DNA of 64,000 nucleotides from Microbacterium sp. No. 7. Lineage in GTDB: Bacteria > Actinomycetota > Actinomycetes > Actinomycetales > Microbacteriaceae. The translations under genes and the position numbers were made by a program. Positions 45,770-64,000 of this stretch are shown here, piece after piece; the stretch's first letter is position 1; each line of letters starts with the position of its first letter. A model generated the notes under the pieces. It was given only the letters and a program-made list of their open reading frames with translations. It searched no databases and was not told the origin of the DNA. The stretch covers positions 4,154,001 to 4,218,000 of the forward strand of contig NZ_CP012697.1 of NCBI RefSeq assembly GCF_001314225.1, in the 5' to 3' direction.

Positions 45770-45906
45770 CGCACCACTGTATTCCCCTCGCCCGCTCCCC
45801 CTCGCGAGAGGCCCGCGCGCCCTCTTTCGAAGAGACCCGCCCTCACGAGAGGAAATTCGGGCGCAGGCGTAACCATTCGGCAACAGTCGTGGACCAAGAT
45901 CGTCTC

Positions 45907-48900: not shown

Positions 48901-49320
48901 GTCAATGGCATCGACCCGCAGCGGCACCTCGTCGCGTGCAACGGCGTGGAGGTGCCGCTCACCTCGACGGGCCGGCTCGGGGAGTACTACGCGGGCGTGC
49001 GGTACCGCGCGTGGCAGCCGTGGTCGGCGCTGCACCCCTCGATCTCGGTGCACGCGCCGCTCACGTTCGAGGTCGTCGACATCGAGGCGCAGGCGAGCCT
49101 GGGCGGCGCGACCTACCACGTCGTGCACCCCGGCGGACGGGCCTACGAGCACCCGCCCGTCAACGCGAATGAGGCGGAAGCCCGCCGGTCCGGTAGGTTC
49201 GAACCGCGCGGGCACACCCCCGGCGCGTTCGATGTGTCGGCGGCTCGCACCGCCGGACGCCGGGCCGCCACGTCCGACTACCCGCGCACTCTCGACCTGA
49301 GGAGGGTCCCGCCGGCGTGA
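45907..49320 (+). CDS. Large transglutaminase-like protein with DUF2126 domain
   Basis: An 1137-residue protein. Residues 1-85 form the transglutaminase N-terminal domain, and about 150-260 the core with the Cys/His/Asp triad at Cys183 (GSCRDSAW), His232 (DLHAWAEVF) and Asp248 (GLDATS). The rest, from about residue 300, is the DUF2126 region with MGGEPTFVALDDA, WNIALQWRTDGLP, TGTGGGNHLTLGG and HNEVxxIHED-type motifs. It is the first gene of a three-gene operon found widely in bacteria and predicted to act in peptide synthesis or modification. Cytosolic, no signal peptide. ATG 45907 has no strong Shine-Dalgarno. Confidence 0.9.
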   Translation: MSIKVALEHYTGYEFARPVSVAPHIVRLRPAPHARTPIEAYSLDVSPKNHFINWQQDPFGNWLARIVFPEKVSRLEITVGLVADMMVINPLDFFIEDYAERFPFTYERSLAADLAPYLRPVENAERAERWRTALPALPDDGVPTVTFLAQLNRAVHDVVEYTVRMEPGVQTPDETLERAIGSCRDSAWLLVALLRQYGLAARFVSGYLVQLTSDQKSLDGPSGPEADFTDLHAWAEVFVPGAGWIGLDATSALFAGEGHIPLSATPHPSSAAPIEGATEPVEVTFSFHNEVRRIHEDPRTTKPYTAPQWARIDALGKAVDERLHKGDVRLTMGGEPTFVALDDARSAEWNTDADGPHKRERANDLAERLRRTYAHGGVVHRGQGKWYPGEPLPRWNIALQWRTDGLPLWHDPGLFADPWGGRAYANAGAHAEALARRVTELLGLPAEQLLPAFEDPLAALAAELRQPHGERPETDEDATEDTVAALDHDVTTPSGWVLPLTTDDEWTSPAWRFRRGRLVLTPGTSPVGLRLPLDAIAWKDPEWPGEPSTLEAGPPLQRGIPAVEIVDPEGAATTALAFEARDGHVHVFLPPTTTLEAYANLLHVIERAASDTAVRVVLEGYGPTPDPRLTQLIVTPDPGVIEVNVQPTTSWAEQRALTFELYEQARLARLSTEKFDVDGTHTGTGGGNHLTLGGRQPIDSPLLRRPDLLASLVTYWQRHPSLSYLFSGRFIGPTSQAPRFDEGRPEAVYEMEIALQEIRRLTAETTEPRPWIVDRALRHLLTDLTGNTHRAEFCIDKLYSPDSGRGRLGLLELRGFEMPPHPELALVQALLVRSLVAMFWEKPLRAPLVRWGTALHDDMLLPQGAVRDAHEVVADLRAHGIAFEETWLDSFTEFRFPRIGLVRIAAKPPARPAGVDAVTDAAPDAADADAATTQPTPEQPADVHDGGDWTGFGSGAAAAIIELELRQAIEPWHVLGEEATAGGTARYVDSSVERVQVKVNGIDPQRHLVACNGVEVPLTSTGRLGEYYAGVRYRAWQPWSALHPSISVHAPLTFEVVDIEAQASLGGATYHVVHPGGRAYEHPPVNANEAEARRSGRFEPRGHTPGAFDVSAARTAGRRAATSDYPRTLDLRRVPPA

Positions 49321-51878
49321 GTGTGCTGCGTGACTACGCGACGGCCGTGTCGACCCCGACACTGCCGTTCTCGGCGACCACCGGGCTCTTCGACGCGTCG
49401 GGCAGGCTCCTCGACGCGTCCGCCGGGATGCCGCGCTACGACGAGGTCGTCGACCCCGACGGCGGTCTGCGCCCCGCGTGGAAGGCGATGGCGTCCGTCG
49501 CGCTCGCCCTCACGCCCGAGGAGCTCACGCGCGTCGAGGGCGAGATCGCGCGCTTCCTCGCCGACGACGGCGTCACGTACGTGCGCGCCGACTCGGGCGC
49601 CGAGCCGTGGCAGCTCGACGTCGTGCCGCTCATCATCGACGCCGCCACGTGGTCACGCCTCGAGGTGGGGCTCGCACAGCGCGCCGAGCTGCTCAACGCC
49701 GTGCTCACCGACCTGTACGGGCCGCGCACGCTGCTGAGCTCGAGCGTCGTGCCGTCGGCATCCGTCTTCGCGCACTCCGGCTTCATCCGCCCGGTCGCGC
49801 GGCGCAGCGCCGCCGACCCGCACCCGCTGCTGCTCAGCGCGACCGACCTGGGCCGCGACCAGGCCGGCGAGTGGTGCGTGCTCGCCGATCGCGTGCAGGC
49901 GCCCTCGGGGCTCGGCTTCGCGGCCGAGAACCGCCGCGTCATGTCGCAGGTGCTCTCCGACCTCTACCACGAGGGCGACCTGCACCGCATGGACCCGTAC
50001 TTCGCGGCGCTGCGGGCCACGCTGCTCGCCTCGGCGCCCGAGGGCGTCGAGACGCCGCGCGTCGTGCTGCTCTCCCCCGGCCCGCACTCCGAGACGTCCT
50101 TCGACCAGGCGTTCCTCGCCACCGCGCTCGGCTTCCCGCTCGTGCAGGGCAGCGACCTCGTCGTGCGCGACGGCTGGGTGTGGATGAAGCCCGCGGGCTG
50201 GCCGCGCCGCGCGCCGCGCGAGCGCATCGACGTGATCGTGCGCCGCGTGGATGCCGAGTGGTGCGACCCCCTGGAGATGCGCGGCGACTCGCGCCTGGGC
50301 GTCGCGGGACTGAGCGAGAGCGTGCGCCGCGGGCGCGTGCGCGTGCTCAACGGGCTCGGCGCGGGCGTGCTGGAGAACCCCGCGCTGCTGCCGTTCCTGC
50401 CCGCCGCGAGCGAGCACCTGCTCGGCGAGCAGCTGCGCCTGCCGTCGGTGCCCACGTGGTGGTGCGGCACGCCCGACGACCGCGCGCTCGTCGAGAGCCG
50501 CATCGCGGCGGGCGACCCGGGCCTCATCGTGCGCCCCATCGACCAGCCGCGCAAGGCGCTCGCGGGCCTCCCGCCCGACGAGGTGCTCGCCCGCATCGCC
50601 GCGGCCCCGCACCGCTACGTCGGGCAGGACCTGCTGCCGCTCTCGCAGGCGCCCGTCTGGGTCGGCGGCGAGAGCGCGACGACGGCGCGCGGCGTCGTGT
50701 TCCGCGCGTTCACGCTGCGCTACCACTCGGCCTACCGGCCGCTCGTGGGCGGCCTCGCGACCGTGCGCGAGTCGCCCGACGCCGCGCCCGTGACGAAGGA
50801 CGTCTGGGTGCTCAAGGCGACGCCGGGCGACCCCGACCAGGGCCTCGTCGACATCACGCCGATCCCCGCGGGCCGCAGCGTCCCCGAGCTGTCGCCGCGC
50901 GCCCTGGAGGACATGTTCTGGGCGGGCCGCTACGCGGAGCGCGCCGAAGACCTGCTGCGCCTGCTCATCACGGCGCACGAGCAGATCGACCAGCTCGGCG
51001 GCCACCCCACGGCGCAGGCGTCGGAGAGCACGCAGGTGCTGCTCGCGGCGCTGCACCGGCTCGCCGGCACCGTGTGGACCGACCCCGACGAGGACTTCCG
51101 CTCGATGCTGCTCGACGCGCACCGCTCCGGCTCGGCGGCGCACTCGCTGCGCCGGCTGCGCGGCGCGCTGGAGGGCGTGCGCGACCAGCTGTCGGGCGAC
51201 ACGTGGCGCGTGTTCTCGAACGTCGACCGCGCCCAGCGCGCGCTGCGCCTGTCGATCCGCGACCGCCGCACGGGCGAGTCGGGCGGCCGCATGCTCACGG
51301 CGATGCTGTCGCTGCACGGCATCACGGCATCCATGATGCGCGACGCGGGCTGGCACATGATCGAGGCCGGCCGGTTCCTGGAGCGGGCGCTGCAGGTGTG
51401 CCACCTGCTGTCGTCGACCGTCACCGTGCGCCGCACCCTGCGGGTGGACCGCGAGGTGCTGGAGGCCATGCTCACGTCGGCGGAGAGCATCGTCACGCAC
51501 CGCCGCCGCTACCGCGGCTCGCTGCGCATCTCGGACGCGCTCGACCTGCTGCTGCTCGACCGCGAGAACCCGCGCTCGATCGCGTTCGCGCTCGCGAGCC
51601 TGCGCGCGCACCTCGCGGTCATGCCCGCCTCGACCGGGTCGACGCGGCCCGAGCGCCTGCTCGGCGACCTGGAGACCGCGATCGAGCAGGTCGACGTCGA
51701 CGCGCTCAGCCGCTCGCACGAGGGCCAGCGGCCGCAGCTGGAGGCGTTCCTGGAGGAGATGGTCGCGCAGCTGCACAAGCTCGGCGACGCGATCGACGAC
51801 CAGTACTTCGAGATCGGCCCGCCGCCGCTCGACCTCGCCGACCTCACCCTCATCGAGGAGCTCGAGGTGCGCGTATGA
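49317..51878 (+). CDS. Circularly permuted ATP-grasp plus alpha-E domain fusion
   Basis: An 853-residue fusion. The N-terminal part (about 1-490) is the circularly permuted type 2 ATP-grasp (DUF404/DUF407) with VVLLSPGPHSETSFDQAFLA, LVQGSDLVVRDGWVWMK and RPIDQPRKAL. The C-terminal part (about 515-845) is the all-helical alpha-E domain (DUF403), beginning DMFWAGRYAERAEDLLRLL. In many genomes these are two proteins. The GTG start overlaps the upstream stop (GTGA), with GGAGGG 12 nt upstream. It probably ligates an amino acid or amine to a peptide; the substrate is unknown. Confidence 0.9.
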   Translation: MSVLRDYATAVSTPTLPFSATTGLFDASGRLLDASAGMPRYDEVVDPDGGLRPAWKAMASVALALTPEELTRVEGEIARFLADDGVTYVRADSGAEPWQLDVVPLIIDAATWSRLEVGLAQRAELLNAVLTDLYGPRTLLSSSVVPSASVFAHSGFIRPVARRSAADPHPLLLSATDLGRDQAGEWCVLADRVQAPSGLGFAAENRRVMSQVLSDLYHEGDLHRMDPYFAALRATLLASAPEGVETPRVVLLSPGPHSETSFDQAFLATALGFPLVQGSDLVVRDGWVWMKPAGWPRRAPRERIDVIVRRVDAEWCDPLEMRGDSRLGVAGLSESVRRGRVRVLNGLGAGVLENPALLPFLPAASEHLLGEQLRLPSVPTWWCGTPDDRALVESRIAAGDPGLIVRPIDQPRKALAGLPPDEVLARIAAAPHRYVGQDLLPLSQAPVWVGGESATTARGVVFRAFTLRYHSAYRPLVGGLATVRESPDAAPVTKDVWVLKATPGDPDQGLVDITPIPAGRSVPELSPRALEDMFWAGRYAERAEDLLRLLITAHEQIDQLGGHPTAQASESTQVLLAALHRLAGTVWTDPDEDFRSMLLDAHRSGSAAHSLRRLRGALEGVRDQLSGDTWRVFSNVDRAQRALRLSIRDRRTGESGGRMLTAMLSLHGITASMMRDAGWHMIEAGRFLERALQVCHLLSSTVTVRRTLRVDREVLEAMLTSAESIVTHRRRYRGSLRISDALDLLLLDRENPRSIAFALASLRAHLAVMPASTGSTRPERLLGDLETAIEQVDVDALSRSHEGQRPQLEAFLEEMVAQLHKLGDAIDDQYFEIGPPPLDLADLTLIEELEVRV

Positions 51879-52828
51879 GGTACCGGGTGTGGCACCGCAC
51901 GACCTACGGCTACAGCGCGAAGGTGCAGGACTCCGTGGGCGTGTTCCACCTCGCGCCGCGCGAGCTGCCGTGGCAGCGCGTGGGCGATCACGCCATCGCG
52001 GTCACGCCCGCGCCGGGCGACATCGAGCGCGACGTCGACTACTTCGGCAACGCCGTGACGTACTACCACCTCACCGATCCGCACGGCGAGCTCGTCATCG
52101 AGGCGAGCACCGAGGTCGAGGTCGTGCAGCCGTCCTATTCGGATGCCGCGCTCGCGACGCCGTGGGAGCTGGCCCGTCCGCTCGTGCACACCGCGACGCC
52201 GGGGGCGTGGGCGGCCGCCGAGTTCGCGCTCGAGTCGGTGCGTGCGCGGCACGTGCCGGATGCCGCCGCGTACGCCGCCACGTCGCTGACGCCCGGCCGT
52301 CCGGTCGGCGAGGCCGTCACCGACCTCATGCACCGCATCTTCGCCGACTTCACGTACGACTCGACCGCGACGACCGTCACGAGCACCGTCGCCGACGTGC
52401 TCGACAAGCGCGCGGGCGTGTGCCAGGACTTCGCGCACCTCGCGCTCGCGTGCCTGCGCTCGCACGGCCTCGCCGCCCGGTACGTGAGCGGCTATCTCGC
52501 GACCCAGCCCCCGCCCGGCAAGGAGCGCGTCTTCGGCGCCGACGCCTCGCACGCCTGGCTCGCCGTGTGGATGCCGGACGGCGGCGGGGCGGCGGGCGCG
52601 GGGTCGGGCGGCGCGGGCAACGGCGAATGGCTCGCGATCGACCCCACCAACGACCAGTGGGCGAACGACCGCTACGTCACGGTCGCGTGGGGCCGCGACT
52701 ACGCCGACGTCTCCCCCGTGCGCGGCATCATCTTCACGAAGGCGAAGAAGTCCACCCTCAAGGTCTCCGTCGACGTCGCCCCCGTCGCCCCCGCCCCCGC
52801 ACCCGCACCACACACCCCCGCTGGTTGA
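51875..52828 (+). CDS. Transglutaminase-like cysteine peptidase-fold protein
   Basis: A 317-residue protein with an N-terminal transglutaminase beta domain (MRYRVWHRTTYGYS) and a core with Cys183 (GVCQDFAHLAL), His226 (ASHAWLAVW) and Asp256 (AIDPTNDQW). It may cleave or transfer amide bonds in products of the ATP-grasp protein. Its start overlaps the upstream gene by ATGA. The last residues (PHTPAG) and the TGA stop come from a dispersed repeat (52817-52924) that abuts the gene, so the native C-terminus may have differed. Confidence 0.9.
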   Translation: MRYRVWHRTTYGYSAKVQDSVGVFHLAPRELPWQRVGDHAIAVTPAPGDIERDVDYFGNAVTYYHLTDPHGELVIEASTEVEVVQPSYSDAALATPWELARPLVHTATPGAWAAAEFALESVRARHVPDAAAYAATSLTPGRPVGEAVTDLMHRIFADFTYDSTATTVTSTVADVLDKRAGVCQDFAHLALACLRSHGLAARYVSGYLATQPPPGKERVFGADASHAWLAVWMPDGGGAAGAGSGGAGNGEWLAIDPTNDQWANDRYVTVAWGRDYADVSPVRGIIFTKAKKSTLKVSVDVAPVAPAPAPAPHTPAG

Positions 52829-52924
52829 GTAGCCGCCGGAGGCGGCGTATCGAAACCCGTGTAACGCACCGTGGGAAGGGTCTCGATACACTCGCGGCTC
52901 CGCCGCGAGCACTCGACCAGCGGG
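52817..52924. repeat. Large palindromic repeat (GCTGGTTGAGTAG type)
   Basis: The left part CGCTGGTTGAGTAGCC...GTATCGAAACCC and the right part GGGTCTCGATACACTCGCGG...CTCGACCAGCG are inverted copies, each with an inner GC-rich hairpin (GCCGCCGGAGGCGGC; CGCGGCTCCGCCGCG). It supplies the stop codon of the transglutaminase gene and separates it from the convergent DeoR gene. This type of element recurs in actinobacterial genomes (from memory). Confidence 0.85.
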
Positions 52925-52936
52925 ATGGAAGGCGCG

Positions 52937-53707
52937 TCAGGCGACGACGATGTCGACGGCGGCGGCGCGGAGCCGGGCGGCGATGGGGTCGGGGGGCTGC
53001 TGGTCGGTCACCAGCACGTGGATGTCGTGGAAGTCGCCGAGGTGCACGAGCTCCGACCGGCCCATCTTGGACGCCGTCGCCACGAGCACCACGCGGTCGG
53101 CCGCCGCGATGATCGCCCGCTTCGTCAGCAGCTCCAGGTTCCGCTCGATGTAGAAGCCGCGCTCGTTGACGCCCGCCGCGCCGATGAACGCCGTCTCCGC
53201 GCGCAGCCCGGCCAGGTTCGAGATCGCGATGTTGCCGACGAACGCCTGGCTGTCGTGCAGCAGCTCGCCGCCGAGGCCGATCGTCGTCGCCTCGGTGAGG
53301 TGCAGCGCCGTCTGGATCACCGGCGCCGAGTGCGTGATGATCGTGCCGGCGAAGTCCTGCGGCAGCACCCGGGCGATGCCGTGGGCCGTCGTGCCGGCGT
53401 CGATGAAGATGCGCTCGCGGGGGGCGAGCAGGTCGCGGCAGGCCTCCGCGATGCGCTGCTTGGCGTCGCGGTCGACGAGGGCTCGCCCGGCGAACCCGGC
53501 GACGTGCACCGTGCCGTGCGGCAGCATCAGCCCGCCGTGCACCGATCTCGCCAGGTCGCTCTGCTCCAGACGCCGCGCGTCGCGGCGGATCGTCATGTCG
53601 GAGACGTCGTACTTGGCGGCGAGCTCCGTCGTCGAGACGAAGCCGTGCTCCTTCAGGTCCTGCAGGATCGAGCGCTGACGCACCGACAGGCCGCCATCGC
53701 GTGTCAT
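52937..53707 (-). CDS. DeoR-family repressor of the sulfoquinovose operon
   Basis: A 256-residue DeoR/GlpR-type regulator. The N-terminal helix-turn-helix reads RQRSILQDLKEHGFVSTTELAAKYDVSDMTIRRDARRLE, here split as the first helix and recognition helix (SDMTIRRDARRLE). The sugar-phosphate sensor domain carries IFIDAGTTAHGIARVL and TGIGGELL-like GLGGELLHD. The E. coli sulfoglycolysis regulator (YihW/CsqR) is also DeoR-type. It is the last gene of the operon and should respond to sulfoquinovose or a phosphorylated intermediate. Confidence 0.88.
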   Translation of the reverse strand: MTRDGGLSVRQRSILQDLKEHGFVSTTELAAKYDVSDMTIRRDARRLEQSDLARSVHGGLMLPHGTVHVAGFAGRALVDRDAKQRIAEACRDLLAPRERIFIDAGTTAHGIARVLPQDFAGTIITHSAPVIQTALHLTEATTIGLGGELLHDSQAFVGNIAISNLAGLRAETAFIGAAGVNERGFYIERNLELLTKRAIIAAADRVVLVATASKMGRSELVHLGDFHDIHVLVTDQQPPDPIAARLRAAAVDIVVA

Positions 53708-53726
53708 CCCGCCCTCGCACCGTCGG

Positions 53727-54470
53727 TCACGGCGCCGGCACGATCTCGACGATGCCCTTCACCAGGATGAGCAGGGCGCCGGCGAACGCGATGACGACGA
53801 CGAACGCCCGCGCCGCCCGCGGCGACACCCATCTCGACAGCAGCTCGCCGACGATGACGCCGCAGATCACGGCCGCCGCGCACGCCGCCCACTGAGGGGG
53901 ATCCAGACGGGGAAGCGACCATTTGGCGAGCAACGATACCCCGCCCAAGACGCAGAAGTAAAGCTGCGCCGTCGCCGCGAACGCGCGCTGCGGCCAGCGG
54001 CTGGCGATCGCGTACGCCGAGATCGCGGGCCCGCCCACGCCGGCCGTCACGTTCATGAACCCCGAGACGAAGCCCGCCGCGACCGCCCCCCGCTTTCCCC
54101 CGAACAGACGGCGGTTCCGCACGACGAGGCTGCCGACGAGGGCGACGATCAGCAGCCCTCCGACGATGATCATCAGCAGCGGCGGCGAGACCGTGCGCGC
54201 GACGATCGCCCCCGGGATCGCGGCGATCGTCGCGGGCACGAGCAGCAGCAGCGCGCGGCGGTACTCCACCTCGCGGAACACCCGCAGGAACACCACGGCG
54301 GCGGTGATCAGGCCGAACACGTTGACGACCAGCACGCCCTCGAAGGGCCCGAGCAGGGCGACGAGGAAGGGCGAGGCGACGAGGGCGAACCCCATCCCGG
54401 TGATGCGCTGGGTGGCCGTCCCGAGGAAGACGGCCACCCCGAGCCCCGCGAGCAGGGGCCATTCGCTCAC
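53727..54470 (-). CDS. TauE/SafE-family anion exporter (candidate sulfolactate exporter)
   Basis: A 247-residue membrane protein with about eight helices and the TSUP pattern: GLGVAVFLGTATQRITGMGFALVASP near the start and FVSGFMNVTAGVGGPAISAYAIA in the middle. TSUP proteins export sulfite, sulfoacetate and other organosulfonates, and they occur in sulfoquinovose clusters as likely sulfolactate exporters. GTG 54470 lies 15 nt after the ALDH stop. Confidence 0.85.
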   Translation of the reverse strand: MSEWPLLAGLGVAVFLGTATQRITGMGFALVASPFLVALLGPFEGVLVVNVFGLITAAVVFLRVFREVEYRRALLLLVPATIAAIPGAIVARTVSPPLLMIIVGGLLIVALVGSLVVRNRRLFGGKRGAVAAGFVSGFMNVTAGVGGPAISAYAIASRWPQRAFAATAQLYFCVLGGVSLLAKWSLPRLDPPQWAACAAAVICGVIVGELLSRWVSPRAARAFVVVIAFAGALLILVKGIVEIVPAP

Positions 54471-54485
54471 GCCGCGCTCTCCCGC

Positions 54486-55910
54486 TCAGAGCCTCCAGGC
54501 CACATACTTCGTCTCCGTGAACTCCTCCAGGCCGATCGCGGCGCCCTCGCGCCCGAGGCCCGACTGCTTGGCGCCGCCCATGGGCGCGAACGCGACCGAC
54601 GGCACGGGGTCGTTCACCCCGACGATGCCGGCCGCGAGGCGGTCGGCGACGCGCCAGCAGCGGGCCGCGTCCGACGAGAACACGTACGCGGCGAGGCCCA
54701 TCTCGGTGCGGTTGGCGCGCGCGATCGCCTCGTCCTCGGTGCGGAACCGGAACACGCCGGCCACGGGACCGAAGACCTCCTCGTTCGCGAGGCGGGCGTC
54801 GTCGTCGACGTCGGTGAACAGCATGGGGCGCAGGAAGGTGCCGCCCTCCGGCACGTCGCGCGGCGTCGTCGCCTCCCTCGCGCCGCGCGCGATCGCGTCG
54901 TCGGCGAGCGCGCGCACGGCGTCGACGGACCCCTGGTCGATCATCGGCCCCAGGTCGGGCGTCGGCTCGGCGAGCCCGTCGCCCAGCGTGAGCGCGTCGA
55001 GCCTCGCGGCCAGGCGCGCCACGAACTCGTCGTGCACCGACTCGTGCACGAGGAAGCGGTTCGCCGCGACGCACGACTGACCCGTGTTGCGGGTCTTCGC
55101 GAGCAGCGCCGCGTCGACGGCCCGGTCGAGGTCGGCATCCTCGAACACGAGGAACGGGGCGTCGCCGCCGAGCTCGAGCAGGGGGCGCACGATGCGGTCG
55201 GCGGCCTGCCGCATGATCGCGCTGCCGACCGGCGTCGATCCCGTGAAGGTGACGACGCGCACGGCCGGGTGGGCGAGCAGCTCCCCCGTGATCTCGCGGG
55301 AGGGCCCGTGCACGAGCCCGATGACCCCGGGCGGCATGCCCGCGTCGGTGAACGCGCGGATCATCTCGGTCACCGCGAGCGGAGCGCGCTCCGACACGCG
55401 GATCACGACCGTGCAGCCCGCGGCGAGCGCGGGGGCGAGCTTGCGCGCCTGCAGCGAGCACGGGAAGTTCCACGACGACAGGCTCACGACGACGCCCGCG
55501 GCGCTGCGCGTGCTGAGGTGGCGGCGCGCCGGGTCCTCCTGCGCGTGCACGAAGCCCTCCGGCCGCCGGGCCTCCTCGGCGAACCAGCGGATGTACTCCG
55601 CCGAGAACGAGATCTCGCCGAGGGCCTCCGGCAGGCGCTTGCCCGCCTCCTCCGCGAGCAGGCGCGCGAGCTCCTGCTGCCGCTCGAGGATCAGCGCGGC
55701 GGCGCGCAGGAGGATGTCGGCCCGCTCGCGGCCCGACCGCGCCGACCACGCCGCGAAGGCGCGCTGCGCCGCGTCGGCCGCCGCGCGGGCGTGGCCCGCG
55801 TCGCCCCAGCAGACCGTTCCGATGACCCGCCCCGTGGCCGGAGCGGTCACCTCCCGGCGACCGGGAAGCGCCGTCCATTCGCCGTCGATGAGTGTCGTCG
55901 CCTCGTTCAT
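54486..55910 (-). CDS. Aldehyde dehydrogenase, candidate sulfolactaldehyde dehydrogenase
   Basis: A 474-residue GabD-like aldehyde dehydrogenase. Glu246 lies in LELGGDAP and nucleophile Cys280 in NTGQSCVAAN; the end GGAKQSGLGREGA...EEFTETKYVAWRL is standard for succinate-semialdehyde dehydrogenases. In sulfoglycolysis such enzymes oxidise sulfolactaldehyde to sulfolactate (as in Pseudomonas putida SQ1). E. coli instead reduces it with YihU, and no YihU is present here. Confidence 0.86.
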   Translation of the reverse strand: MNEATTLIDGEWTALPGRREVTAPATGRVIGTVCWGDAGHARAAADAAQRAFAAWSARSGRERADILLRAAALILERQQELARLLAEEAGKRLPEALGEISFSAEYIRWFAEEARRPEGFVHAQEDPARRHLSTRSAAGVVVSLSSWNFPCSLQARKLAPALAAGCTVVIRVSERAPLAVTEMIRAFTDAGMPPGVIGLVHGPSREITGELLAHPAVRVVTFTGSTPVGSAIMRQAADRIVRPLLELGGDAPFLVFEDADLDRAVDAALLAKTRNTGQSCVAANRFLVHESVHDEFVARLAARLDALTLGDGLAEPTPDLGPMIDQGSVDAVRALADDAIARGAREATTPRDVPEGGTFLRPMLFTDVDDDARLANEEVFGPVAGVFRFRTEDEAIARANRTEMGLAAYVFSSDAARCWRVADRLAAGIVGVNDPVPSVAFAPMGGAKQSGLGREGAAIGLEEFTETKYVAWRL

Positions 55911-55980
55911 TCCGTGTTCTCCTCGTGCCGTCTCGTTCTGCTGCGGATGCCGTCGGTCGGCATGTCGGCCCGTGTTCCCG

Positions 55981-56796
55981 TCATCCCTTGACCGCGCCGC
56001 TCGTCATGCCGGCCACGAAGTAGCGCTGCAGGAAGACGTAGGCGATGACGATCGGGATGGACGACAGCACGACCCCGGCGAACAGCAGCGGGTAGTTCGT
56101 CAGGTACTCGCCCTGGAAGCGCAGCAGCGCGAGCGGCAGGGTGAGCTTGTCCTCGGTCGAGATGAAGAGCAGCGGGTAGAGCAGCTCGTTCCAGTGCATG
56201 ACGAAGAGGAACGTCGCCGTCGCCGCGATCGAGGGCGCCGACAGCGGCATCGCGATCGACCAGTAGGTGCGCCACGGCCCTGAGCCGTCGATGTCGGCCG
56301 CCTCGTAGAGCTCGTGCGGGAGCGTCCTCATGAATCCGCCCATGATGAACACCGACACCGGCAGCGTCACGACGATGTTGATGAGGATGAGCCCGAGCTG
56401 GCTGTTCAGCAGGCCGAGCTGGTTGAACTGCACGAACTGCGGGATCATGTTCGCCTGCGCCGGCACCGACATGCCCAGCACGATGAAGCCGAAGATCAGC
56501 CATCCCTTCCAGCCGGGGATGCGCGAGACGCCGTAGGCGGCGAGCGACCCGATGAACAGCGTGATCGTGACCGACGACACGGTGATGATCGCGCTGTTGA
56601 GGAAGGCGACGCCCAGGTTGCCGCCCGTGAGCACCTCGCTGTAGTTGGAGAGGTTGAGCGACGTCGGCGGCGCGAACGAGTTCTCGAAGATCTCGGCCGT
56701 GGTCTTGAAGCTGCCGAAGAAGACGACGAACAGCGGGATGGCGATGATCGCCGCGTAGATCGCGAGGACGACCCCGCGGGAGAGTCTGCCGGCCAT
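55981..56796 (-). CDS. Sugar ABC transporter permease (MalG-like)
   Basis: A 271-residue permease of the CUT1 family with six helices and the EAA loop ELYEAADIDGSGPWRTYWSIAMP. Its ATG overlaps the stop of the preceding permease gene (TAATG). It forms the channel with its partner for uptake of a sulfoquinovose-type sugar. Confidence 0.92.
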   Translation of the reverse strand: MAGRLSRGVVLAIYAAIIAIPLFVVFFGSFKTTAEIFENSFAPPTSLNLSNYSEVLTGGNLGVAFLNSAIITVSSVTITLFIGSLAAYGVSRIPGWKGWLIFGFIVLGMSVPAQANMIPQFVQFNQLGLLNSQLGLILINIVVTLPVSVFIMGGFMRTLPHELYEAADIDGSGPWRTYWSIAMPLSAPSIAATATFLFVMHWNELLYPLLFISTEDKLTLPLALLRFQGEYLTNYPLLFAGVVLSSIPIVIAYVFLQRYFVAGMTSGAVKG

Positions 56797-57731
56797 TATT
56801 CGCCCCTTTGCACCAGGCGGAGGAACCGCCGGATCACGAAGGTGATCACGAGGATGAAGATGATGAAGAGCACGGACTGCGTGGCGGCGTACCCGAACTG
56901 GGAGTTCGCGAACGTCGAGTAGATCCGTGTGGAGAGGATGTCGAGCGAGGCGCTCGGCGGGTTGCCCGAGATGCTCAGCACGACGTCGAACGCCTTGAAC
57001 GACTGGATGGTCGTGTAGGCCACGACGATCGACATCGCGGGCGCGATGAGCGGCCACGTGATCGACGTGAAGCGCCGCCAGGGGCCCGCCCCGTCGACCT
57101 CGGCCGCCTCGTAGAACTCGGCGGGGATCGCCTGCAGGCCGGCGACGAAGATCACGATCATCATGCCCGCGTGGAACCAGATCTGGGTGACCGCGAGCCA
57201 GTAGATCGCCTGCGCCGGGTCGCCGAGGAACGACGACTTCAGCCCCGGCATCCCGAGCGCGTCGAGCGAGCTGTTGATGACGCCGAAGTTGGGGTCGTAG
57301 ACGAACTTCCAGATGAAGCCCACCGACACCGACGAGAGGATCGTGGGGAAGAAGTACAGCGCCCGCAGGAAGATCGTCGTCTTCGTGTTCTTGACGAGCA
57401 GGATCGCCATGATGAGCGCGACGGCCGTCTGCCCGATGACGACGACGACCATGAACCTCATGTTGTTGCCGAGGGCGTTGGTGAACAGCGCGTCGCCCGC
57501 GATCGCGCGCACGAAGTTGTCGATGCCGACGTAGTCGAACTCGGGGCTGTAGCCGTCCCAGTTGGTCACCGAGTACTGGAACGTCTGCAGCGTCGGGATG
57601 ACGAAGAAGACCGTGTACAGCACGAGGGCCGGGATGGGGAAGAGGTAGAGCAGTGGCGACACGTGCCGCGACGACCGCTTGGCCCGTCGCCGCGGCGCGT
57701 CCCGCGTCACGATCGCAGTGGTCTCGGACAT
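56796..57731 (-). CDS. Sugar ABC transporter permease (MalF-like)
   Basis: A 311-residue CUT1 permease. A basic cytosolic N-terminus precedes the helix LLYLFPIPALVLYTVFF, and the EAA loop reads EFYEAAEVDGAGPWRRFTSITWP. It lies four nt after the binding-protein gene. No ATPase gene is in the operon, so a shared MsiK-type ATPase encoded elsewhere is expected, as is common in actinobacteria. Confidence 0.92.
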   Translation of the reverse strand: MSETTAIVTRDAPRRRAKRSSRHVSPLLYLFPIPALVLYTVFFVIPTLQTFQYSVTNWDGYSPEFDYVGIDNFVRAIAGDALFTNALGNNMRFMVVVVIGQTAVALIMAILLVKNTKTTIFLRALYFFPTILSSVSVGFIWKFVYDPNFGVINSSLDALGMPGLKSSFLGDPAQAIYWLAVTQIWFHAGMMIVIFVAGLQAIPAEFYEAAEVDGAGPWRRFTSITWPLIAPAMSIVVAYTTIQSFKAFDVVLSISGNPPSASLDILSTRIYSTFANSQFGYAATQSVLFIIFILVITFVIRRFLRLVQRGE

Positions 57732-57735
57732 GCGA

Positions 57736-59067
57736 TCACCCCGCCGCGGCGATCCGCTGGTCGACGATGAGCTGCGCGTCCTCGGCGGCCTTCTCGGGCT
57801 GCGTGCCGGTCAGCGCGTACAGGCCCGCGGCCTCGACCGCGGTGCGCATGTCGAGATCGGTGAACTGGAAGCGCGGCGCGAGCATGAGGTCCTTGTCGAG
57901 CCACGGCGTGAGGCGCATGAGGTCGGGGTCCTTGTAGGTCGCGCCCTTGACGGGCGTGTGCTGCGACGTGCCGTCGCCGTAGAAGCTCGCGATCTCGGGG
58001 TCGCTGAGGAACTCGAACCACGCGAGCGCGGCGGGCTGCACCTTCGAGGCGGAGTTGATGCCGAGGATGAACGTCGCGTTGTAGATGCCGACGTACGTCG
58101 CCGCGCCCGGGTCGTTGGTCATCGCCGGCACGAGGTCGATCGGGAACTCCGCCCCGAGCGAGCGCACCGACGCGATGTGGTAGCTGCCCGTCGAGAGGAT
58201 GGCGCCCTTGCCCGTCGCGAAGAGCTGCTGCGCGGGCTCCACGGCCGTGCCGGCCGCGTTGTCCTGCGCGTACGCCCCGAGCTCCTGGTACTTGTACAGC
58301 ATCTCGATGAACCAGTCGTCGGTGCACTTGTACTCGCCCGACTGGATCTTGGCGAACATGTCGGGCGACGGCGCGATGTTCATCGACATCGAGTTGATGA
58401 GCTGGCCGGCGTTGCCGGCATCCGCCCCGGGGAAGACGAAGGGGGTGATGCCCTTGGACTTGATCTTGTCGAGCATGTCCATGTACGCGTTCCAGTCGGT
58501 CGGCTGCTCGGCGTAGCCGACCGACTCGAGGACGTCCATGTTGGCGATCGGCACGTTGAACACGATCTGGTACGGCAGGCCGTACTGCTTGCCGTCCTTG
58601 GCGCCGACCTCGATGCGGCTCGCCTCGTACTTCTCGACGAGGCCCGTGTCGGTCAGGTCGACGAACTGGCCGACCTTGATGAAGCTCTCGAACTGGTCGC
58701 CGCGGCCGGCCGGCGCGATGTCGCCCACGGCGCCGTCGCGCATGCGCCGCAGCGCCTGGGCGTTGTAGTCGGTCGACGTCGAGATGTCCTGCGTGATCTC
58801 GACGTCGGGGTACTTCTCGACGAAGCGCGCGATCAGCTCCGCGAACACGTCGCGGTCCTCGCCGCGCCAGTGCGCGAACGAGACGTGGCCTTCGATCGCG
58901 CCGCCGGTCGCGATGCCGGTGGATGCCGGACGCGCGGTGCCCGGGCCCGCGCAGGCCGAGAGCAGGGCGGTGAGCCCGACGACGCCCGAGGCGCTGAACA
59001 GCTGCCGGCGCGTCATGCCGCCGTTCGCACGGCCGGAGGCGGGGGTGAGGTGGAATGCAGAGGACAT
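57736..59067 (-). CDS. Sugar ABC transporter substrate-binding lipoprotein (family 1)
   Basis: A 443-residue CUT1 binding protein. An N-terminal MTRRQLFSASG segment with twin Arg and a following lipobox LSAC (Cys about 39) suggests a Tat-exported lipoprotein. The core has VSFAHWRGEDRDVFAELIARFVEKYPDVEI, typical of family 1. It should deliver sulfoquinovose or sulfoquinovosyl glycerol to the permeases; basic residues for the sulfonate cannot be identified without a structure. Confidence 0.9.
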   Translation of the reverse strand: MSSAFHLTPASGRANGGMTRRQLFSASGVVGLTALLSACAGPGTARPASTGIATGGAIEGHVSFAHWRGEDRDVFAELIARFVEKYPDVEITQDISTSTDYNAQALRRMRDGAVGDIAPAGRGDQFESFIKVGQFVDLTDTGLVEKYEASRIEVGAKDGKQYGLPYQIVFNVPIANMDVLESVGYAEQPTDWNAYMDMLDKIKSKGITPFVFPGADAGNAGQLINSMSMNIAPSPDMFAKIQSGEYKCTDDWFIEMLYKYQELGAYAQDNAAGTAVEPAQQLFATGKGAILSTGSYHIASVRSLGAEFPIDLVPAMTNDPGAATYVGIYNATFILGINSASKVQPAALAWFEFLSDPEIASFYGDGTSQHTPVKGATYKDPDLMRLTPWLDKDLMLAPRFQFTDLDMRTAVEAAGLYALTGTQPEKAAEDAQLIVDQRIAAAG

Positions 59068-59121
59068 GTCGTAGAACTCCTTTGTTCCCTTGTTCTTGTT
59101 GCGTGGTGGTCGGTGGAGGGG

Positions 59122-60018
59122 TCAGCGGGCTCGCGTGCCGACGACGTCGTCGACGACGTCGACGAGTCGCTGCAGCCGCTGAGTGGCGTTCGTGCGCAGG
59201 TCGGCCTCGACGTCGGCGGCGGCCAGCGAGGGCGCCCAGACCGCGCGACCGGCGAGGAAGCCCGACGCGCCCGCCTCGCACGCGATGCGCACGGCGTTCG
59301 GGAAGACCTCGGGGTCGACGCCCGACGAGAGCACGACCCACGGGCCGTCGATCGCGTCGGTGAGGCGGGCGCACTCCGCGCGCAGCTCGTCGTCGCCCAC
59401 GGCGGCGCGACGCGGCACCTCGGCCTTGTAGAGGTCGGCGCCCAGGCCGCCGAGCTCGGCGGCGGCGCGGTGCACGCCCTCGTTCCAGTCCCAGTCGTCG
59501 CCGCCACCGAGAGGCTTGCGGGAGACGGGCTCGATGATGCTGGCGAGACCGGCGTCGGCGCAGAGGTCGATGAACTCGCGCGTCATCGCGATGCGCCCGT
59601 CGGGGCTCTCGTCGGGCCGGTGGAGCACGAGCAGCTTGAGCGCGACCGCGCCGCGCCGCTTGAGGTCGTGCGCGTCGATCAGCCGGTCGATCGTGACCTC
59701 GCCGACGAGCTCGCCGTGCGCCGGCTCGAAGTGGTCGGCGCTGCCGATGAGGCCGCACGTGCCGGCGACGACCCCCTGCTCGATCGCGGCGTCGAGGGCG
59801 AACTGGCGGTCGATCAGCACGGCCGACGCGAGGGGCGTGAGCACGCGCGCCGCCGTCAGCTTGAAGTCGCGCACGTCGTCGTCGGTGACGGGGGCGTCGG
59901 TGTGCTCGGCGAGCATGTTCCGCAGGGCCTCGCGCTGGTCGACGGCGAGCATCGCGAAGGCTCCCGAGGGGCGGCGCAGCGGGTCGAGCACGGAGTTTCC
60001 CGGAGTTGTCGTGGTCAT
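59122..60018 (-). CDS. yihT: 6-deoxy-6-sulfofructose-1-phosphate aldolase (YihT)
   Basis: A 298-residue class I aldolase that splits sulfofructose-1-phosphate to DHAP and sulfolactaldehyde. By recall of the E. coli protein it matches over the full length: SGAFAMLAVDQREALRNM, ALKLLVLHRPDE, SIIEPVSRKP, GADLYKAEVP with the Schiff-base Lys198, WVVLSSGVDPEVFPNAVR and GASGFLAGRAVWA. The tagatose-bisphosphate aldolase LacD is a relative, but these blocks fit YihT better. The ATG lies one nt after the kinase stop. Confidence 0.93.
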   Translation of the reverse strand: MTTTTPGNSVLDPLRRPSGAFAMLAVDQREALRNMLAEHTDAPVTDDDVRDFKLTAARVLTPLASAVLIDRQFALDAAIEQGVVAGTCGLIGSADHFEPAHGELVGEVTIDRLIDAHDLKRRGAVALKLLVLHRPDESPDGRIAMTREFIDLCADAGLASIIEPVSRKPLGGGDDWDWNEGVHRAAAELGGLGADLYKAEVPRRAAVGDDELRAECARLTDAIDGPWVVLSSGVDPEVFPNAVRIACEAGASGFLAGRAVWAPSLAAADVEADLRTNATQRLQRLVDVVDDVVGTRAR

Positions 60019-60019
60019 G

Positions 60020-60949
60020 TCATCGTCCTGTCGTCAGGTGCTTCTCGGCGAGATGGTGGAGGTTCTCGTCGTGGGTCGGGATGGCGCTGCGGCCGTCGAT
60101 CCCGCGACACGAGAGGGTGGCTGCCGTGGTCGCGTAGGCGACGACGGACTCGAGCCCGGGGGCGATCGCGCCCTCGGAGGCGTGGATGAGGCCGGCGACG
60201 AGCGCGCCGTGGAAGACGTCGCCCGCGCCGAGCGTGCTGACGATCTCGGCGCGCGGCGGCATGACGGCGGCGTACTCGCCGTCGGCGCGGAGCCCGTACG
60301 ACCCGGCCCCGCCGTCGGTGACGACCACCGTGCGGGCGCCCTCGTCGAGGGCCGCCTGCATGAGCGCGCGGGCGCTGAATCCCGCGTAGCGCTGCTGGAT
60401 GGCGGCCATCGTCGGCACGTAGAGGTCGGTGTCCTCGAGCGTCAGGCCCGGGATCGCGTTGCCCGCGTCGACCGACAGCCGCAGTCCCGCGGGCAGCAGG
60501 CCGCGTCGCGCCTGCACCGCGGGCCAGCCGTGCTGGTCGACGTGCAGCCACTCGGCACCGTCCAGCTGCGCGAGCAGCGCGTCGTCGAGCTCGAGCGCCG
60601 GGCCGACCTGGTTGACGATCGCGCGCGAGCGCTCGGGGCCGCTGATGACGACGACGCTGCGCGAGGTCGCCGCGCCGGGCACGGTGCGGATGCCGGAGAC
60701 GTCGACGCCCTCGTCGGCGAGGCGGCGTCGCACGAGGTCGCCCGCCTCGTCGTCGCCGACCGCCGCGACGACGGCGGAGGGGATGCCGAGGCGCGCGGCG
60801 GCCACGGCCGCCGTCGCGGCCGGGCCGCCCCCGCCGAAGATCAGGTGCCGGGCGACGGTGCGCTCATCGGCTCCGGGGTAGCGGTCGACGACGGCGATGG
60901 CGTCCTCGGTCGCGACGCCCGCGAACACGGCCCGTGGCGTCGCGCTCAT
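60020..60949 (-). CDS. yihV: Sulfofructose kinase (YihV-like, PfkB family)
   Basis: A 309-residue ribokinase-type sugar kinase that phosphorylates 6-deoxy-6-sulfofructose. The motif [17 protein letters not shown] near the N-terminus is almost the same as in E. coli YihV ([16 protein letters not shown]), and the catalytic loop is [15 protein letters not shown]. Its ATG overlaps the isomerase stop by ATGA. Its pairing with yihS and yihT homologues makes the function firm. Confidence 0.91.
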
Positions 60950-62187
60950 GACACGGCCGCATCGAGCAGGCCGGCGGCGAGCGCCGGGGCCATCGCGGGG
61001 GCCAGCGGCAGCCGCGGCACGAGCAGGCAGTGCATGAGGTGGTAGATGTCGGGCTTGCCGTCCCACACCTCGTGCGACACCTCGTTCTCGGGCGAGAGCT
61101 CCTGCCACCACGACCCGTTCTCGGTGTCGATCAGGTATTGCTTCGCGTAGTCCCAGAACCGCTGGTACCACTCGTCGTAGCGGGCGTCGCCGGTCGCGGC
61201 GTGCAGGGCGGCCGCGCCGCCCATCGCCTCGACCACGACCCAGCGGATGCGCGCGCGCACGACCGGCTGCCCGTCCCAGTCGACGGAGTACACGAAGCCG
61301 GGGTGGCCGTCGGGCTCCCACGCGTCGCGCACGGCGGCCTCGAACAGGCCGGCCGCGTCCTCCTGCAGCCAGTCGGGCGCGTCCATGCCCCGCGCGCGCA
61401 GCGCGTCGCGCAGCGAGAGCAGCAGGCGCGACCACTCGGTCCAGTGCCCGGGCGTGCCGCCGAAGGCGCGGAACCGGTGCGCGCGGTTGTCGCTGTTGTA
61501 GTCGAACAGCGGCTGCATGTGCTCGTCGAAGTGCTCCACCACGCGGTAGCTGTTGCCCCGGGCGACGTCGTGGATGACCTTCGCGGCGATCGCGAGCGCG
61601 CGGCGCAGCCAGAGGTCGTCGCCCGTGACGTCGGCGACGACGAGGAACGCCTCGACCGCGTGCATGTTGACGTTGCCGCCGCGGTACGCCTCGGTCTCGG
61701 TGAACGCCTCGTCCCACGACTCGAGGCAGATCTGCTGCTCCTCGCTCCAGAACCGCTCCTCGATCAGGGCGAGGGCGTCGTCGAGCAGCTCCCGCGCCCC
61801 AGGGCGGCCGGCCGCCGTGGCGCTCGCCGCGCCGAGCACGACGAAGAAGTGCTGGTAGCCCTGCTTGCTGGCATCCGCCGGGCCGTTCTCGTCGATGGCC
61901 GCGTACCAGCCGCCGTTCTCGCGGTCGCGGAACGGGCCGTTCAGCGCGGCGATGCCGTGGTCGACGAGCGCCCCCGCCCCCGGGCGCCCCATCAGGGCGG
62001 CGAGGGAGTAGACGTGCACCATCCGGCTCGTGATCCACAGCTGCGTCGGCACCTCGGCACGCACGGTGCCCTGGTTGCTGAGCCAGCCGAACCCGTTCGC
62101 CACGCGGGCGTTGCGCCCGAACTCGAACGTGCGGTCGGCCTCGGCCTCCAGCCAGCGCGCGTGCGCGGGGGTGTTGAGCCAGGTCAT
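60946..62187 (-). CDS. yihS: Sulfoquinovose isomerase (YihS, AGE family)
   Basis: A 413-residue N-acylglucosamine-2-epimerase-fold isomerase, the same length as E. coli YihS. Matching blocks are [77 protein letters not shown], and [17 protein letters not shown]. It converts sulfoquinovose to sulfofructose. ATG 62187 follows GAAGGAG, a better start than the upstream frame to 62217. Confidence 0.95.
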
Positions 62188-62236
62188 CGGAACTCCTTCT
62201 GTCTTCTTTGACGTCATCGATGCGAGCGGTTCGGCG

Positions 62237-63364
62237 TCACCGCGCCGAGAAGTCGAGCTCGACCGGCACGTGCTCGGCGGCCGACCGCTCCGCGGCCATG
62301 CCCATGAGAACGGCGCGCAGGCCGTCTTCGAGCGTCACCTCGACCTCGGCCTCGCCGCGCACGACCTGCTGGAACCGCAGGTGCTCGTAGTACGTGGAGC
62401 CGTGGTGGCCGCCCGCCTCGAGGATCGCGGGATCGACGGGCACGGGGCGCTGCACGGGTCCCTGCGGGTCGCGCGGGCTGAGCTCGACGTAGGCGTCGGC
62501 CCGGGCGCCCTCCCAGTGGGCGCCCGACACGGGGACGAAGCACTCGACCTTCGCCGTGTCGCCCACGACCGAGACGTGCTCCTGGAACCGGGTGCCCTCC
62601 GCGAACATGCACAGGTTCAGCAGCGCGCGGCTGCCGCCCGCGAAGTCGACGACGACGAAGGCGTTGTCGAGGATGTCGGGGACGTGCCCGTCGTACGACT
62701 CGTCGCGGTGGTTGACGTCGGCGGCGCCCGAGGCGTAGACGCGCACGGGCTCGTCGCGGAGGATGAGCCGCATGAGGTCGAAGAAGTGGCAGGCCTTCTC
62801 CACGAGCGTGCCGCCGGTGCGCGCGGCGTAGCGGTTCCAGTTGTCGACCTTGTCGAGGAAGGGGAAGCGGTGCTCGGTGATCGCGAGCATCCGCGGGGTG
62901 CCGAGGCCGCCGCCGTGCGTCTCGTCGAGCAGCGCCTGCATCGGCGGCATGTACCGGTACTCCATCGCGACCCAGATCGGCGCGTCGTAGTCGCGCGCCG
63001 CGGCGCGGAGCCGCTCGACGTCGTCGGGCGTCGTGCACAGCGGCTTCTCGACGAGGATCGGCAGGCGGCGCCCGCCGCTCATGACGTCGATGAGGATGTC
63101 GGCGTGGGTGTCGTTGGGGGTCGCGACGATCAGCGCGTCGAGGTCGGCCTCGGCGAGCATGGTCGCGTGGTCCTCGTACTCCGCGGCCGTACCGCCCAGC
63201 AGCTGCTGGGCGGCCTCCCGCGAGGGGGCGTGCGGGTCGGCGATCGCGACGATCTCGCTGCCGTCGATCAGGCCGACGTTGCGGATGTGCTCGCGACCCA
63301 TCGTTCCCGTGCCGATCAGTCCGTAGCGAATGCTGGCCGGCTCCGTCTGCGCCTCGGTAGACAC
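62237..63364 (-). CDS. Gfo/Idh/MocA-family protein, candidate NAD-dependent sulfoquinovosidase
   Basis: A 375-residue protein with an N-terminal NAD fold ([19 protein letters not shown]), the EKP motif ([12 protein letters not shown]), and the C-terminal domain with [36 protein letters not shown]. It heads the sulfoquinovose operon. Recent work described NAD-dependent sulfoquinovosidases (family GH188, from memory) of this fold in sulfoglycolysis clusters that lack the GH31 enzyme, which fits here. A plain sugar dehydrogenase is the alternative. GTG 63364 follows GGAGG. Confidence 0.8.
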
Positions 63365-63404: not shown

Positions 63405-63446
63405 CAAACGTTTGATACTCAACATCTAATGTTGATATATCAACAC
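63405..63446. promoter_or_regulatory. Multi-palindrome operator of the sulfoquinovose operon
   Basis: Three overlapping symmetric elements lie 41-82 nt upstream of the first gene: CAAACGTTTG (63405-63414), TCAACATCTAATGTTGA (63419-63435) and GTTGATATATCAAC (63431-63444). Half-sites TCAACA recur. The block is AT-rich against a GC-rich background and is the natural DeoR target; TAATGTTGATATA-like stretches may also hold promoter elements. Confidence 0.65.
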
Positions 63447-63498: not shown

Positions 63499-64000
63499 TC
63501 AGTGCGCGGCGTCGACCCAGCCGAGCGACCGCTCGACGGCCTTCCGCCACAGGCGCAGCTGCCGGGCGCGCTGGGCCTCGTCGACCCGCGGCAGCCAGCG
63601 GCGCCCCTCCTGCCAGTTGGCGCGCAGGTCGTCGAGCCCCGCCCAGAAGCCCACCGCGAGCCCCGCCGCGTAGGCGGCGCCGAGCGCCGTCGTCTCGGCG
63701 ACGACGGGCCGCACGACGGGCACGCCGAGCACGTCGGCCTGGAACTGCATGAGGGTGTCGTTGGCGGTCATGCCGCCGTCGACCTTCAGCTCGGCGAGCC
63801 GCATGCCCGAGTCGGCGTTCACGGCGTCGAGCACCTCGCGCGTCTGGAACGCCGTGGCCTCCAGCGCGGCGCGGGCGATGTGGCCCCGGTTCGCGAACCG
63901 GGTCATGCCGACGATCGTGCCCCGGGCGTCGGGGCGCCAGTGCGGTGCGAAGAGCCCGGAGAACGCGGGCACGAAGTAGACCCCGCCGTTGTCGTCGACG
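63499..64000 (-). CDS. glpK: Glycerol kinase, C-terminal part
   Basis: The last 167 residues of a FGGY-family glycerol kinase; the gene enters from beyond the right edge. Visible are [57 protein letters not shown] and [18 protein letters not shown], diagnostic of GlpK. It lies on the same strand and upstream of the sulfoquinovose operon but is separated by the 63405-63446 operator, so it is probably a different transcription unit. It could phosphorylate glycerol released from sulfoquinovosyl glycerol. Confidence 0.93.

Follow-up and report, generated by a model that had tools for sequence, protein, structure and literature searches.

We are highly confident that an operon in the genome of Microbacterium sp. 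No. 7 imports sulfoquinovose, the sugar of plant sulfolipids, together with its glycosides, and breaks these down by a sulfoglycolytic Embden-Meyerhof-Parnas (sulfo-EMP) pathway to sulfolactate for export, with probable repression by a DeoR-family protein and probable use of glycerol through an adjacent glpDK pair. The operon occupies positions 52937-63364 of the 64,000-nucleotide stretch analysed here (the window), which lies at G000:C1:4154001-4218000 in a genome (G000) of 4.83 Mb in three contigs. It comprises ten minus-strand open frames spaced by -4 to +70 nt, which bears out the ten co-directional genes with overlaps or short gaps described in an earlier reading made without database searches (the sequence-only reading). 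That reading also called this a complete sulfo-EMP operon in an actinobacterium, a claim supported by the recurrence of the ten-gene set in Arthrobacter AK04 and other Arthrobacter-type loci. The predicted products are as follows, with identities given to the AK04 counterparts (locus L084):

62237-63364, minus strand: sqgA, NAD+-dependent sulfoquinovosidase of family GH188 (Gfo/Idh/MocA fold), GTG start; first in transcription order; assigned by PDB matches and residues (59% identity)
60946-62217, minus strand: sulfoquinovose isomerase (YihS-like), 423 aa; second; assigned by PDB matches (64%)
60020-60949, minus strand: sulfofructose kinase (YihV-like PfkB), 309 aa; third; 4-nt ATGA overlap with the isomerase gene (43%)
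59122-60018, minus strand: sulfofructose-1-phosphate aldolase (YihT-like class I); fourth; assigned by its match to 1to3 (70%)
57736-59067, minus strand: sugar-binding lipoprotein of an ATP-binding cassette (ABC) importer (SBP_bac_1); fifth; assigned by Pfam (53%)
56796-57731, minus strand: ABC permease 1; sixth; assigned by Pfam (60%)
55981-56796, minus strand: ABC permease 2; seventh; 1-nt overlap with permease 1; assigned by Pfam (65%)
54486-55910, minus strand: sulfolactaldehyde dehydrogenase (aldehyde dehydrogenase of GabD/SlaB type); eighth; Cys280, Arg156 and Arg274 (62%)
53727-54470, minus strand: TauE/SafE (TSUP) permease, probable sulfolactate exporter; ninth; Pfam 81.8 bits, cut-off 32.6 (44%)
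52937-53707, minus strand: DeoR-family regulator, probable operon repressor; tenth; assigned by Pfam and NCBIfam (53%)

In the scheme that follows, what each enzyme does, which substrates are transported, what this strain produces, how the operon is repressed and how glycerol is used are all inferred. The ABC importer would take up sulfoquinovose as well as sulfoquinovose glycosides, above all sulfoquinovosyl glycerol (SQGro), driven by an ATPase of MsiK type supplied from elsewhere. SqgA would oxidise the glycoside transiently at C3 with NAD+ and thereby cleave it to yield sulfoquinovose, which the isomerase would convert to sulfofructose and the PfkB kinase to sulfofructose-1-phosphate. The class I aldolase would then give dihydroxyacetone phosphate (DHAP) and sulfolactaldehyde, the aldehyde dehydrogenase would turn the latter into sulfolactate, and the TSUP permease would export it. 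Acting at a palindrome upstream of sqgA, DeoR would repress the ten genes, whilst glpK-glpD probably turn the freed glycerol into DHAP. Direct observation covers homology and gene order, the active-site residues, and the presence of a stand-alone ATPase gene, of a second glpDK pair and of a recurring promoter motif.

One cluster holds homologues of the sulfoquinovose isomerase, the sulfofructose kinase (by synteny and a modest best match) and the sulfofructose-1-phosphate aldolase. Against the PDB, the isomerase matched four chains at 634-639 bits (2afa, 638.6 bits; 7ag4, 636.4 bits), with the next protein of the N-acylglucosamine 2-epimerase (AGE) type at 153. Two of the four are named YihS or sulfoquinovose isomerase, and the other two, 2afa and 2zbl, we take to be YihS. 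The isomerase had been described as equal in length to its E. coli relative, with blocks of similarity covering the whole protein; this is corrected here to a protein of 423 aa, matched over 410-413 residues of chains 421-433 long. His258 occupies the position of an Ala in 7ag4, which, from its sequence compared with that of 2afa, appears to be a mutant. The aldolase matched YihT chains at 263-269 bits (1to3, 268.5), followed by a DUF2090 protein at 60.7 and, as the best tagatose-bisphosphate aldolase, one at 55.9; Lys198 is the probable Schiff-base lysine, a role that we presume for it. For the kinase, 7ag6 (YihV) was the best of 47 PDB matches at 86.7 bits and a ribokinase was next at 64.2. 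It is 32% identical to YihV of Escherichia whittamii, and two stretches (12 and 10 residues) are common to the kinase and the two enterobacterial YihV sequences aligned. The kinase is thus the weakest assignment, appearing to depend on synteny plus this modest best match. The sequence-only reading's description of all three as close homologues of YihS, YihV and YihT therefore stands for the isomerase and the aldolase, whereas it overstates the likeness of the kinase (86.7 bits, 32%). The comparison that it proposed with AGE epimerases, ribokinases and LacD aldolases came out higher for the sulfosugar enzymes each time (634-639 vs 153, 86.7 vs 64.2 and 263-269 vs 55.9 bits), albeit by a small margin for the kinase.

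The gene at 62237-63364 had been given no role, and its PDB matches identify it as a member of GH188. The best were 8qc3 (486.9 bits), 8qc2 (473.9) and 8zn9 ('Oxidoreductase, putative', 403.1), with the fourth at 85.1; in Pfam and NCBIfam only Gfo/Idh/MocA-type dehydrogenases were matched. 8QC3 and 8QC2 are ArSqgA and FlSqgA, described as NAD+-dependent sulfoquinovosidases and founders of GH188 (PMC10755693). The residues of ArSqgA reported there to contact sulfoquinovose are Lys107, Tyr136, Arg166, the Leu170 backbone, Lys172, Glu189, His193 and His321. Counting by hand along the PDB match, we found all eight (8/8) kept in the window protein with identical numbering (K107, Y136, R166, L170, K172, E189, H193, H321), including the usual Leu170 and not the Tyr variant described in PMC11465081. 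A Glu163 is also named in PMC10755693. At positions 163 and 164 the window protein reads Thr-Glu (T163, E164) and, by the same count, the ArSqgA chain Val-Glu; possibly the glutamate is at 164 in both and the published number is a slip. Given the GH188 match and the eight kept contact residues, the operon likely handles sulfoquinovosides, and it very probably starts from sulfoquinovose glycosides and not only from the free sugar. This gateway enzyme can be overlooked because it resembles an inositol dehydrogenase.

Eighteen loci were compared with the window: 13 from Arthrobacter or Pseudarthrobacter, two enterobacterial and three from the family of the host. All ten genes were found together in 12/13 of the Arthrobacter/Pseudarthrobacter loci, a co-occurrence far more than chance would give, with the remaining locus, L065 (Pseudarthrobacter sp. 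HLT1-5), showing six. The end of the stretch probably cuts the L065 cluster, since the first hit there starts at base 7. Some 5 kb separate its isomerase gene from its TSUP gene, and deoR stands between the two, an arrangement that differs from the other Arthrobacter-type clusters.

Several points weigh against the proposed reading, and some of them could be taken to indicate an ordinary sugar or polyol operon with an AGE-type mannose isomerase, a ribokinase-type kinase, a LacD-type aldolase, an iolG-type dehydrogenase and a succinate-semialdehyde dehydrogenase. In NCBIfam the five proteins attract the names D-mannose isomerase (526 bits against a cut-off of 600), ribokinase, tagatose-bisphosphate aldolase, inositol 2-dehydrogenase and succinate-semialdehyde dehydrogenase, all five below the cut-offs, and none of the hits of the isomerase (3), the kinase (17) or the aldolase (4) is named for sulfosugars. 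Moreover, the margin of the kinase over ribokinases is small, the aldehyde dehydrogenase is closest by sequence in the PDB to succinate-semialdehyde dehydrogenases, none of the best 25 of its 45 NCBIfam matches reaches its cut-off, and the palindrome upstream of sqgA showed no sigma-70-like promoter. However, the bit scores of the isomerase, the aldolase and SqgA are approximately 4-6 times higher for sulfosugar enzymes than for the closest other proteins (for SqgA, setting aside 8zn9 at 403 bits), the sulfonate-binding residues of SqgA are all kept, and the ten-gene set is the same as that of AK04. We consider an ordinary sugar operon most improbable.

The sulfo-EMP pathway proposed here would end in sulfolactate. 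An aldehyde dehydrogenase takes the place of a YihU-type reductase, no domain of which was found in a Pfam scan of the ten genes. Arg171 and Arg289 have been proposed as sulfonate-binding positions in RlGabD (PMC10599462). At these places, located via the WNF and catalytic Cys motifs, the window enzyme has Arg156 and Arg274, and it lacks the second Cys, as the same source describes for Arthrobacter. Arthrobacter AK01 and AK04 are reported to grow on sulfoquinovose and to excrete sulfolactate, and AK04 to convert 13C-sulfoquinovose to sulfolactate (PMC8873060). Because the ten genes match those of AK04, a known sulfolactate excreter, the earlier prediction of sulfolactate and not 2,3-dihydroxypropane-1-sulfonate as the product gains support, to which the arginine pair and the lack of any PF04295 match in the genome also contribute.

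The last of these bears on whether a sulfo-EMP strain such as this degrades sulfolactate onward to sulfite and pyruvate rather than excreting it, which we judge very unlikely. The case for it comes from another genome of the same family, G066, where stretch L116 (G066:C70) carries at 1849-15701 genes for an isomerase, a kinase, an aldolase and an aldehyde dehydrogenase next to a galactarate-dehydratase-like gene that may encode SuyB. Its product matches PF04295 (113.8 bits) and PF20629, and the cluster also encodes a 2-hydroxyacid dehydrogenase and a protein whose nearest match is L-sulfolactate dehydrogenase (176 bits, cut-off 500). As the SuyB-like and L-sulfolactate-dehydrogenase-like genes adjoin those for the isomerase, kinase and aldolase, this arrangement suggests a tandem sulfo-EMP and sulfolactate sulfolyase cluster in which sulfolactate is further cleaved. 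The L116 stretch contains no close sqgA, with another Gfo/Idh protein there at 24%. In G000, by contrast, a search for PF04295, the domain family to which we take SuyB to belong, gave 0 matches (the positive control was found in 5/14 genomes; PF04295-independent routes such as Xsc were not searched), and the SuyB-like protein of G066, used directly as a query without a control, gave no match.

For transport, the cluster includes ABC importer genes (a binding protein and two permeases) and the TauE/TSUP permease gene, and it is without an ATPase gene. Among 143 ATPase-like matches in a scan of the genome, the best of UgpC type is at C1:1490636-1491712 (473.9 bits, cut-off 432). None of the five neighbours scanned encodes a permease or binding protein; their products are a SpoU methylase, an NAD-binding protein, a DUF4032 protein, a thioredoxin and a nitroreductase. 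We take an unlinked UgpC/MalK-type ATPase gene to be a feature of an MsiK-type shared ATPase. The stand-alone UgpC/MsiK-type gene agrees with the earlier suggestion of an MsiK-type ATPase encoded elsewhere, and fits such an ATPase as the putative energiser of the sulfoquinovose importer.

A palindromic site upstream of sqgA is a candidate DeoR operator:

63422-63446, minus strand: candidate operator GTGTTGATATATCAACATTAGATGT, 25 nt, upstream of sqgA and holding the palindrome

The perfect palindrome TGTTGATATATCAACA is found at 63430-63445, within the 134-nt gap between glpK and sqgA, and occurs in one place in the 4.83-Mb genome at <=2 mismatches. Its half-sites are contained in the core GTGTTG-N8-ACAT, which 12/13 Arthrobacter-type loci carry between sqgA and the kinase gene (the exception being L065) and which is also present at the sulfoquinovose clusters of genomes G066 and G705; the stretch from genome G346 gave no match. 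A second copy stands just upstream of deoR in three loci (L067:1488, L073:1442, L082:1444), as an autoregulated repressor would have, and L064 has one extra copy downstream of the TSUP gene. A longer pattern, GTGTTGN{6,7}NNACATN{4,5}TGT, was matched five times across five whole genomes: once at the sulfoquinovose cluster in each of G000, G066, G420 and G705, once more in G000, and not at all in G346. The reversed control pattern has zero matches in the five genomes. The longer pattern was picked after viewing those promoter stretches, and hits there are therefore expected; its near absence elsewhere is the informative part. The further match in G000 (C1:113444-113468) has an ABC ATPase match (114027-114680) approximately 0.6 kb away and is either chance or a second target. 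A scan of the glpK-sqgA gap found neither a sigma-70 promoter nor a terminator. The arrangement TTGACC, 17 nt, TAGTGT, spotted there by eye, fails the promoter scan and is not relied upon. In a literature search on a sulfoquinovose operator, DeoR or palindrome, just one paper among the matches listed, on an E. coli single-target regulator, mentions sulfoquinovose.

Directly upstream of sqgA lies a glpDK pair that the earlier reading left out:

63499-64000, minus strand: 3' part of glpK (glycerol kinase) within the window; whole gene L089:12500-14011, 731.1 bits, cut-off 590.35
L089:14099-15820, outside the window: glpD, upstream of glpK on the same strand
L089:15879-16916, outside the window: SorC/DeoR-type regulator, divergent, upstream of glpD

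A second glycerol kinase gene at C1:1152879 (714.1 bits, over the cut-off) sits beside a second glpD; between this pair and the one adjacent to the operon, identity is 66% for glpD and 68% for glpK. The presence of a paralogous glpDK at the operon while another pair lies elsewhere suggests that glycerol from SQGro is also used via glpDK, a link that is sensible because SqgA acting on SQGro would release glycerol. For AK01, growth on SQGro is reported to give approximately double the yield obtained on sulfoquinovose (PMC10755693). Near the sulfoquinovose clusters of 16 distinct loci (13 Arthrobacter-type, G066, G346 and G705), within at most approximately 10 kb per side, neither glpK nor glpD was found at E <= 1e-8 (0/16). 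We tentatively propose, as a possibility somewhat short of an even chance, a 14-kb SQGro module of glpD-glpK plus the ten-gene operon, which would yield two DHAP and one sulfolactate from each SQGro and keep its glycerol branch apart from the housekeeping glpDK, and in which DeoR would act at the shared GTGTTG-N8-ACAT operator and, in some clusters, also on its own gene.

The operon is a patchy, accessory trait, since SqgA and isomerase matches are confined to few genomes of the family and order. The isomerase had a match at E <= 1e-60 in 15/299 family genomes, exceeding 47% identity only in the host itself and G066 (74%). SqgA was found in 2/398 family genomes at E <= 1e-70 (the host and G346) and in 3/396 order genomes at E <= 1e-100 (the host, G420 and G705), and in none of the 17 other genomes of the same genus listed in the latter search. 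All ten genes are present in G346, G705 and G420; the G420 stretch is the same DNA as locus L072, already among the loci compared above (88% of L072 31-mers shared). In G346 the ten-gene cluster (L124, 222-11915) has two DeoR-type genes (41% and 52%).

Third-position GC is 0.95-0.98 in all ten genes, as expected of real genes in a high-GC genome, and the GC content of the operon (0.711), next to 0.720 for the window, does not point to recent transfer. The nearest organism-named proteins to SqgA and to the adjacent GlpD, with the 120 nearest listed, are from Microbacterium. An inserted island bounded by flanking direct repeats (56 and 54 nt, approximately 15 kb apart) was considered and rejected, because one 44-nt form of the repeat is found at 86 places in the genome at <=3 mismatches. 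The right-hand flanking gene, used to search for an empty site in the genus, is present in 2/39 genomes, the host included. Members of a dispersed palindromic repeat lie on both sides of the sulfoquinovose/glp region (window 52818-52923 and L089:17147-17490), and a 21-nt tandem repeat is found at L089:17169-17359. The genes at window 45889-52828, on the plus strand, are convergent with the operon; from their translations we take them to encode transglutaminase and alpha-E/ATP-grasp-type proteins.

Sulfoquinovose is produced at approximately ten billion tons a year (PMC10755693), and at such a scale the identity of its degraders matters for the sulfur cycle; the present case adds a Microbacterium host to them. 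The sulfo-EMP variant to which the operon belongs was published in 2022, with Microbacterium sp. No. 7 included among the related clusters (PMC8873060). As described there, a sulfolactaldehyde dehydrogenase replaces the reductase in the AK01/AK04 cluster, which also has ABC transporters and an IolG homologue then unexplained, and TauE is present in the AK04 cluster with no obvious one in that of AK01. The window operon shares with this system the sulfolactaldehyde dehydrogenase, ABC import and TauE export, all ten genes having AK04 counterparts, and a Pfam scan of the ten genes found no GH31 or mutarotase gene, as in the AK04/AK01 cluster. It differs in gene order: in AK04 the sqgA and deoR genes are transcribed divergently from the others and the isomerase gene comes last, whereas the window operon is co-directional, opening with sqgA and closing with deoR. 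It also differs in the adjacent glpD-glpK, found at 0/13 of the Arthrobacter-type loci. With the E. coli yih (sulfo-EMP) cluster the operon has homologues of YihS, YihV and YihT in common, but the Pfam domains that we take to stand for the YihQ, YihR and YihU types were not found among the ten genes, which instead include an aldehyde dehydrogenase, an ABC importer and SqgA. The E. whittamii locus (L033) matched only the isomerase, aldolase, kinase and deoR of thirteen queries. The sulfofructose transaldolase (sulfo-SFT) cluster of Eubacterium rectale likewise has a glycerol kinase gene by its sulfoquinovose genes, proposed to act on glycerol from SQGro (PMC11968277, the sole result of a literature search on sulfoquinovosyl glycerol and glycerol kinase). 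That cluster differs in its transaldolase, its GH31 sulfoquinovosidase and its phylum, and linkage to glpD is a feature of the window operon. Within GH188, the window SqgA matches ArSqgA and FlSqgA (8qc3, 8qc2) over nearly the whole length with the eight contact residues in common, is 59% identical to the AK04 protein and at best 75% identical to any of the 120 proteins listed. Taken together, the system is another example of the published actinobacterial sulfo-EMP form and nothing categorically new, to which the glpDK linkage and the candidate operator are small additions.

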